NCBI GenBank assembly: GCA_015272515.1
Contig: JACYLN010000080.1
Coordinates: 1 to 47,228 of the forward strand
Source: Leptolyngbyaceae cyanobacterium C42_A2020_001
GTDB lineage: Bacteria; Cyanobacteriota; Cyanobacteriia; Leptolyngbyales; Leptolyngbyaceae
DNA length: 47,228 bases
Reading direction: 5' to 3'
The translations under genes and the position numbers were made by a program. Positions 16,939-46,081 of this stretch are shown here, one piece after another. The number at the start of each line of letters is the position of its first letter. Within the stretch, counting starts at the first letter, position 1. Below the pieces are notes generated by a model, which was given only the letters and a program-made list of their open reading frames with translations, made no database searches and was not told the origin of the DNA.

Positions 16939-17367
16939 TTAAAGTTCACGATAAAACCGTTCTTCAAGCCATCGATCAATATCCTGCTCAGACTCCAAAT
17001 AGGTAGTTTGTCCAGTCAGTGGATCATAGGCATACCAAAAATTTCCCTCGCTGCCAGTTACTCTGTGAATTCTGGGTTCAGAATACCTGGAGTGATATTT
17101 TGCGTAGAGAGATTGAAGCAGAATGCTCCAAATGACTCTTAAAACATCGGCACTTGCAGGTTTATCAGCCTCAAACTCACTTTTAGACCAACAACGCTCT
17201 AGATAGTCGATCTGTTGTTTGGGCGCAAGACCCTCTGTAAATCGATCAACCAGTGACTGTAAGCTCTGGCTCATCCAGGTTGCAAAGGCTGAATTGCCCT
17301 TATTTGGCTCATGAACTGTATTTGGAATTAATTCTAGAGTTTGATATATCCGCCAATGTAGTTCCAT
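16939..17367 (-). CDS. Small conserved-looking protein of unknown function
   Basis: The 142-residue protein was not recognised. It has no signal peptide or membrane segment and is mixed alpha/beta, ending in a charged helix (ESEQDIDRWLEERF). A central FWYAYDPLTGQTTYLESE block looks like a small beta-hairpin. A GGAG lies 8 bases before the ATG, which supports translation. It precedes the CHAT gene on the same strand by about 140 bases; that gap contains a CTTCACT/AGTGAAG inverted repeat near 16800, so the two need not be one transcript. Confidence 0.65.
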   Translation of the reverse strand: MELHWRIYQTLELIPNTVHEPNKGNSAFATWMSQSLQSLVDRFTEGLAPKQQIDYLERCWSKSEFEADKPASADVLRVIWSILLQSLYAKYHSRYSEPRIHRVTGSEGNFWYAYDPLTGQTTYLESEQDIDRWLEERFYREL

Positions 17368-17591
17368 AAAAGACGCTCCATTACATTCAAAAAATGAAGC
17401 GCGTTCCTTCGGGTTAATTCCCTACTTCCGTCTCCTTAAAATGGATCAGGCAAACAATCCACTCTAGAGATGAACGATTATTTCTGTATTCAGTGTTACA
17501 GAATTCTCCTTGTTGTTGCAATATTTAGTTAGAAAATCTTGACATTTCGGTTGTAGTTGTACTACAGCATGAGTGATAGACGAACAACGTT

Positions 17592-19781: not shown

Positions 19782-19853
19782 TAAATGCTGAGTGTATTAA
19801 GAATCGCCAGATTTGATCGCCAGATTTGGCGGCTTGGTTGGCGCAAACATGTA

Positions 19854-19953
19854 TAGCCGTAGCCATCTGTAACGTGGCTATGGCGAGTCAGAACGCCTAC
19901 CCAGCATTGGCTTTGCCACTTTTTCCTGTCCTAAGCGTTCTGACCAAAGCTAT
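19854..19953 (+). repeat. 100-nt structured intergenic element, copy A
   Basis: Two stems can form. Stem 1 pairs GCCGTAGCCA (19856-19865) with TGGCTATGGC (19875-19884), with one G-T wobble and a 9-base loop. Stem 2 pairs GTCAGAACGC (19887-19896) with GCGTTCTGAC (19935-19944), perfectly. The ends, ATAGC and GCTAT, are also complementary. A second copy of exactly the same length at 45905-46004 keeps both stems with different bases. It lies between the oxidoreductase stop and sbtA. Confidence 0.65.
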
Positions 19954-19981
19954 AATTTTATGTGTTTGCAGACGTTGCGAC

Positions 19982-45852: not shown

Positions 45853-45904
45853 AGTTGACCGGGAATGAATAACAGACGTAGGTGCCACTAACAAAAACTA
45901 GCTG

Positions 45905-46004
45905 TAGCCGTTGTCATCTTTAATAGGACAATGGCTGTCAGTCAGCCTTCCTGGACTACGGTTTAGCAAACTAATCGTGTCCTAAGCTGACTGACCATCG
46001 CTAT
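45905..46004 (+). repeat. 100-nt structured intergenic element, copy B
   Basis: It has the same length and anchor sequences as copy A at 19854-19953: TAGCCGT at the left, TGTCCTAAGC near 80, CTGACCA near 90 and GCTAT at the end. Stem 1 pairs AGCCGTTGTC with GACAATGGCT, and stem 2 pairs GTCAGTCAGC with GCTGACTGAC. The stem bases differ from copy A but remain paired. It lies between the Spy-like gene and the PRC-barrel gene. Confidence 0.65.
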
Positions 46005-46081
46005 GGTTGGGTAGATGCTGAACCTATACCTAACCTACTCTATTATTCATCCCCACTTAATGAGTCGAGCGTTGATTGTGC

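Follow-up and report, generated by a model that had tools for sequence, protein, structure and literature searches.

What keeps a fold intact while the sequence that forms it changes? The question is raised by two segments of equal length, here called copies A and B, in a 47,228-nt stretch of DNA from Leptolyngbyaceae cyanobacterium C42_A2020_001 (the window). The original prediction for this locus, made without database searches, described a two-copy element in which compensatory changes preserve two stems. It offered a structured RNA, a MITE with ATAGC/GCTAT inverted ends or a DNA cruciform site as explanations, with either selection or a copying mechanism maintaining the fold. It also proposed a covariance-model search, in which an absence of further copies, or further copies with stems that have lost their pairing, would speak against the proposal. 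As described below, it is highly probable that the element is a ~104-nt non-autonomous MITE of the IS630/Tc1-mariner type, with a two-hairpin architecture and stems that seem to be kept paired in part by re-copying.

Copies A and B and their relatives

Both segments are present where they were predicted, and the covariance-model ends lie 2 bases further left and 1 base further right (Table 1). Their stems have different sequences in the same register and are still paired, wherein two 10-bp stems account for 20 of 20 possible pairs in copy A and 19 of 20 in copy B. No other position in the window exceeds 17 pairs in this register, and 16 or more are reached at 11 of 46,577 positions. The predicted RNA folds of copy A (-38.5 kcal/mol, z -5.0) and copy B (-42.4 kcal/mol, z -5.2) are equalled by none of 200 shuffles in either case, and the minus strands of both copies fold equally well (0/200 shuffles as good). 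A covariance model built from 25 copies, A and B included, recovers both copies in the window together with three weaker rows, which represent the opposite strand of copies A and B plus one 10.9-bit match.

Table 1. Positions of the element copies, stem arms and terminal repeats in the window.
Feature	Position	Strand	Basis
Copy A of the element	19852..19954	+	covariance-model ends, 103 nt
Copy A stem 1, 5' arm (overlaps left terminal repeat)	19856..19865	+	fold and register count
Copy A stem 1, 3' arm	19875..19884	+	fold and register count
Copy A stem 2, 5' (inner) arm	19887..19896	+	fold and register count
Copy A stem 2, 3' arm (within right terminal repeat)	19935..19944	+	fold and register count
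Copy A right terminal repeat, 28 bp (inward reading TATAGC..TTAGGACA)	19927..19954	-	
Copy B of the element, divergent subfamily	45903..46005	+	covariance-model ends, 103 nt
Copy B stem 1, 5' arm	45907..45916	+	register count
Copy B stem 1, 3' arm	45926..45935	+	register count
Copy B stem 2, 5' (inner) arm	45937..45946	+	register count
Copy B stem 2, 3' arm	45986..45995	+	register count
Copy B left terminal repeat, degenerate (TGTAGC..TAGGACA)	45903..45930	+	
Copy B right terminal repeat	45978..46005	-	

The compensatory pair changes between the two copies are real, although their original numbering is off by about one position and the change from C-G to T-A proposed for stem 1 is not cleanly two-sided. 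At this pair (19863-19877), most B-type rows among 25 aligned copies carry an unpaired C/A, and T-A is found only in copy B itself (L009) and in L010. A G-T wobble common to A and B had been taken to favor the + strand as the RNA form. This wobble is no family trait, as the pair is G-C, G-T or A-T depending on the copy: of the 11 B-type rows in the same alignment, six have G-C and two have G-T, and some A-type copies have A-T.

The element was also wrongly described as two-copy. When the proposed covariance-model search was carried out, further copies were found in the genome of origin and in others: the host genome holds at least 83 matches at E 0.001 or better, and the element thus accounts for at least 83 of its repeats. 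At least 233 copies are present in a set of 39 genomes, of which at least 11 are carriers. Under stricter filters, matches occur in at least 34 of 291 cyanobacterial genomes, from at least 20 of the 130 genera of the class; the model counts for both sets are lower bounds. A structure-blind BLAST search finds matches in 13 of 58 genomes. An exact right-end pattern, with this end alone scored, is present in 15 named stretches, which include Leptolyngbya, Nodosilinea, Nostoc, Scytonema and Stenomitos. A search of 58 genomes with the right-end pattern gives matches in 11, and a backward control gives 0. A search of a plasmid collection for the element gave no match.

A chance likeness of two unrelated hairpins can be set aside as vanishingly improbable. 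It is refuted by the copy number, namely the model matches above and the 42 BLAST matches to copy A in its own genome, and by the end-pattern control, in which the own genome yields 30 matches to the right-end pattern and none to its backward version. The 42 matches include 30 that are near full length with at least 94% identity; copy B gives 28, many of them partial or weak.

For comparison of copies we aligned 64 from the host genome, out of the at least 83 model matches, and 83 from other genomes (duplicate L231 removed), out of at least 150; one of the aligned copies, L043, comes from a genome outside the 39. A length of 101 to 106 nt is shared by 135 of 147 fetched copies. Within the host genome, 27 of the 64 fetched copies have no more than 4 mismatches to copy A, and the A subfamily looks recent. 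Several loci depart from the common arrangement. At L018 (G000:C31:28286-28545), two copies, one B-type and one A-type, share an orientation and are separated by 56 nt, and L187 (G000:C37) is a 130-nt copy with 27 bases added within hairpin 1. Relatives of 126 to 130 nt with an extended hairpin 1 are found at L329, L330, L333 and L316 (genomes G265, G157 and G289). Their extended hairpin includes a box resembling TTAGGACA together with a second end-like sequence, GGCTATAC, and they are possibly a separate subfamily.

Terminal repeats and insertion sites

The ends of the element form an imperfect 28-bp inverted repeat, TATAGCnnTnGnCA..TTAGGACA (TATAGC...TTAGGAC), of which A-type copies lack the inner half of the left repeat. 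The reading as a MITE with ATAGC/GCTAT inverted ends proves right, because these ends match the terminal repeats of IS630-family transposons. The element is likewise short, multicopy and too small for a transposase, as is expected of MITEs.

At 18 of 30 IS630-type loci, the pattern GTC[C/T]TAA-(13-16)-GCTATA directly follows the transposase (0 of 6000 shuffles), and a matching left end is also present at 9 of those 18; the remaining 12 loci are without the right-end pattern. When 17 hand-picked IS ends were compared with their best-partner element ends, 17 to 23 of 28 positions were identical, a range to be read with the bias towards a match that comes from picking IS ends by a TATAG start. 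Shuffled IS ends compared with the right end of copy A gave a mean of 7.2 and a maximum of 16 identities of 28. In a BLAST comparison of 133 distinct copies with the 30 IS630 loci, all five matches fall at IS ends (L103, L131).

The host genome itself contains a remnant of an IS630-type transposase (L068). The end repeat of this remnant in L068/L103 is identical to the right repeat of copy A at 23 of 28 positions, and a direct reading places the stop codon of the remnant inside the repeat. A search with 56 residues of the remnant finds relatives in 74 of 291 genomes. At another locus, L109, a transposase split across two frames carries HTH_Tnp_IS630 and DDE_3 domains. The 149 contigs of the host assembly yielded no intact cognate transposase: the remnant alone has a matching end, and the ends of the two remaining DDE_3 genes are unrelated. 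An intact transposase in the host is not needed for membership in the IS630 group, because the source may be lost or unassembled.

REPINs mobilized by RAYT (Y1 tyrosine) transposases are likewise short mobile DNAs with hairpins, and an assignment to this class would account for two hairpins in about 100 nt, an intergenic location and many copies. The host genome also has six Y1_Tnp matches, one of which has an element ~1.1 kb away. The other five loci are without the element in the flanking DNA examined, and the ends of the element match those of IS630. We therefore rejected a REPIN-like origin, which is very unlikely with the element in the flanks of one of six Y1 loci. Four of the Y1_Tnp matches (L337-L340; G000 C129, C17, C134 and C140) have identical scores and one in-frame TGA each.

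The positions of the copies agree with the MITE reading. Among the 27 copies nearly identical to A, all 27 start with TATA and 23 finish with TATA; these ends of young copies fit a TA-targeting element, and no longer direct repeat is visible by eye in the printed flanks. By crude ORF calls, none of the 64 own-genome copies and 2 of the 83 others lie inside an ORF of at least 100 amino acids, compared with 803 of 1280 random placements, and a further 4 own and 8 other copies overlap an ORF end. In the orthologous gap of the same-genus genome G002, copy B is missing and the gap measures ~65 nt rather than ~180, with a junction that is not exactly readable for a target duplication. A search for an empty site of copy A found its flanks on different contigs in G019, one flank in G028, and neither in G001 or G002.

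Two A copies (L002 and L176) and the IS630 remnant L068 have a common type of upstream flank, AATAAGGCTTTGC(C/T)A(C/T)TTT. This flank is apparently another dispersed repeat that serves as a landing site. Copy A also contains a similar string, GGCTTTGCCACTTTT.

Covariation and probable re-copying of the stems

We evaluated the fold with MAFFT alignments of 25 and 48 copies, hand-chosen for spread and for a length near 105 nt. These alignments are sequence-based, and many of their rows were found with the structure model, which leans to paired stems. The larger alignment took 23 of 60 distant loci and omitted longer or degenerate ones (e.g. L299, L307, L316, L318, L319, L329-L336) and further siblings. 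Paired cells make up 99.2% of stem 2 and 77.5% of stem 1 among the 25 copies, and 96.2% and 83.8%, respectively, among the 48. In the 48-copy alignment as a whole, 90.0% of cells are paired compared with 74.0% in shuffles, and two-sided changes occur at 14 of 20 pairs, a number reached by 11 of 500 shuffles. Its covariation score of 0.445 is reached by none of 500 shuffles (shuffled 0.154), and slid registers give at most 0.091. RNAalifold recovers both hairpins and leaves the middle of stem 1 unpaired.

The two stems differ in how strictly pairing is kept. Stem-2 arms as different as GTCAGAACGC, GTCAGTCAGC, GTCAGGCAGC, GTCAGCAAGC, GTCACTTAGC and GTCACTTGAC each retain their complement. In stem 1, only 47 of 133 distinct copies have a fully paired middle even with wobbles counted as pairs, and the share varies widely among genomes (31 of 50 copies in the host genome, compared with 3 of 18 for G001 and 5 of 23 for G002). 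Thus, the loss of pairing that would have spoken against the original prediction is found in part, in the middle of stem 1, but not in stem 2.

One alternative sees the copies as a family of structured small RNAs, or as a cis-acting RNA, that transposition disperses and whose covariation reflects selection on the + transcript. Both stems do covary strongly, which is not specific to RNA, and good folds form on both strands. Selection on an RNA from one strand is expected to favor G.T mismatches, whereas decay of DNA is not. Among the 133 distinct copies, the stem-1 cells comprise 907 Watson-Crick pairs, 141 G.T, 97 A.C, 173 other mismatches and 12 gaps, and the excess of G.T over A.C is largely due to one pair common to whole lineages. 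The 1330 cells of stem 2 comprise 1191 Watson-Crick pairs, 48 G.T, 48 A.C, 40 other mismatches and 3 gaps. Single-sided changes in seven groups, summed over both stems, give a G.T to A.C ratio of 90:64 with shared descent uncorrected. Stem-2 mismatches therefore fit decay, and stem 1 leans to G.T.

Other observations also argue against an RNA. The copies have no consistent orientation to neighboring genes (19/17/15/9 of 60 in the host genome and 25/17/15/12 of 69 elsewhere), and none has a credible Rfam match. Carriers have from 1 to at least 83 copies, and among the candidates scored there was no match for 28 genomes in the set of 39 and for 257 in the set of 291. We consider selection on a + transcript unlikely: the equal counts in stem 2 and the largely lineage-inherited excess in stem 1 give the structured-RNA proposal little support, and a preference for the + strand fares no better, given the same stem-2 counts and a wobble pair that is G-C or A-T in other copies. 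A structured RNA already known to Rfam was ruled out, as the only match in the window at gathering score is a glutamine riboswitch located elsewhere. This aptamer (RF01739, 54.9 bits) occupies 17398-17478 on the minus strand, upstream of an ORF at 16939-17367 (-).

The proposal that either selection or a copying mechanism maintains the fold was well judged, and a copying mechanism in stem 1 is indicated by rewritten arms and inverted loops among close siblings. In genome G001, L199 differs from L196 at 2 of 68 positions outside hairpin 1, and the 5' mid-stem triplet of L199 is TCT rather than GTC, the exact complement of the 3' arm AGA that the two copies share. A second pair from this genome, L097 and L197, differs at 1 of 68 positions outside hairpin 1 and shows the same triplet change together with an inverted loop; hairpin 1 of L097 is the reverse complement of that of L199 at 29 of 29 positions. 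In G019, L038 has ATA/TAT where L093, with 1 of 67 differences, has GTA/GAA. The direction of triplet change is deduced in these cases from the GTN common to most copies. Less close cases are L150 (TTC/GAA, 8 of 67 differences from L050) and, in the host genome, L185 and L182, for which the direction is less sure because the nearest siblings of these three are no closer than about 7-11%. Among eight siblings in G164 (L320-L327), one stem-1 pair is G-C in three, T-A in two, A-T in one and an unpaired G.A in two.

Loop inversion is associated with full pairing. The middle triplet is fully Watson-Crick in 5 of 5 loop-inverted copies, which are not all independent (L097 and L202), compared with 7 of 58 copies with the usual loop (Fisher p 1e-4), or 22 of those 58 when wobbles are counted; the loops of 70 of the 133 copies were not classed. 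The evidence for flipped loops comes from a loop-motif test and BLAST, and a general flipped-loop rule flagged none. Among stem-2 loops there are 0 minus-strand BLAST matches. Hairpin 1 alone shows loop inversion, so that for stem 2 template switching would be an extrapolation from stem 1.

A different possibility is that a DNA hairpin, as a cruciform or a single-stranded end, is needed for transposition or for tolerance by the host, and that selection for it outweighs template switching as the main cause of the covariation. We assign this somewhat less than an even chance. Support for it is found in stem 2, where many different sequences across the class keep their complementarity and where the symmetry of G.T and A.C fits selection on both DNA strands. 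The stem-2 arms are less variable than loop 2 in 7 of 7 groups, and they vary no more than the right end in 6 of 7, the exception being G040. The inner arm by itself also varies less than the loop in 7 of 7 groups and about as little as the arm within the repeat. Because this arm of low variation is not part of the terminal repeat, it hints at a requirement for the hairpin. Against such selection stand the mispaired middle of stem 1 in most G001 and G002 copies, the fact that the structure-model search favors paired stems, and one broken stem-2 pair that three A copies at different sites (L171, L172 and L177) have in common. Given these three copies, transposition may do without perfect pairing. 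Template switching is the better shown contributor, and the two causes are not exclusive.

These observations are consistent with a life cycle in which an IS630-type transposase would act in trans on the imperfect 28-bp inverted ends and insert the element at TA dinucleotides, presumably duplicated on insertion, in the intergenic DNA where copies are found. Each end would form its own hairpin by pairing between a section of the terminal repeat and an inverted copy of it further inside. Complementarity of the arms would be kept at the level of DNA: a changed arm may at times be re-copied from the opposite arm by template switching within the hairpin, an event that can invert the loop and introduce several 'compensatory' changes at once, as the footprints in stem 1 suggest and as may also apply to stem 2. 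We infer that the hairpins probably also aid transposition of the element, because lineages that bear the fold span many cyanobacterial genera, and a DNA-level need in transposition is likely behind the persistence of the fold.

More speculatively, the copies may constitute a class-wide, long-lived MITE family in which the fold and the ~105-nt length are conserved over sequence, arms are template-switched, and hairpins are needed for movement or tolerance. We regard this combination as plausible, with the odds slightly against it. If true, the family would be a natural multi-copy laboratory in which to distinguish whether 'compensatory' mutations stem from selection or from copying.

Relation to known elements

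Covariation is widely read as evidence of functional RNA, and template switching is described as creating and repairing the hairpins of RNA genes (PMC8794818). The cases described there resemble ours in that one event yields multi-base compensatory changes copied from the opposite arm, and ours differs in concerning a bacterial MITE with many sibling copies, in which loop inversion can mark the event. Here, mobile DNA shows strong covariation and footprints of copying without a clear G.U preference. The element thus calls for caution when bacterial RNAs are sought by covariation, and also offers a many-copy system to measure template switching.

The open-access literature searched gave no recognized description of this element family, and cyanobacterial MITEs as such are already known (PMC10969869, PMC3542288). 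One of these, Nezha, is proposed to be mobilized by ISNpu3-like elements (PMC3049150, PMC10969869). Like our element, it is a cyanobacterial MITE paired with an IS, and, compared by description, it may be the same family. REPIN/RAYT systems (PMC3116915) differ from our element in transposase class and ends.

An autonomous counterpart is found in ISY100 (ISTcSa) of Synechocystis, a 947-bp Tc1/mariner/IS630 element with 24-bp imperfect ends and a TA target (PMC2170065). By this description, it shares with our element a cyanobacterial host, the IS630 superfamily, imperfect ends and the TA target predicted for our element, and differs in being autonomous and 947 bp long rather than non-autonomous and ~104 nt. 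Mini-transposons of ISY100 with 30 bp of each end are reported to equal the full-length element in mobility, which makes the proposed MITE mechanistically plausible (PMC2170065).

Judged by description, the nearest element is the Repeat Unit of Pneumococcus (RUP), a MITE of 107 bp whose ends resemble those of IS630-Spn1. One genome has 110 copies of RUP, and movement of RUP in trans by an IS630 transposase has been proposed (PMC3049150). The likeness extends to size, IS630-type ends, the proposal of movement in trans and high copy number. RUP is described in this source as AT-rich, with terminal repeats that pair with each other. In contrast, each end of the cyanobacterial element forms a hairpin of its own, and its stems covary across genera.
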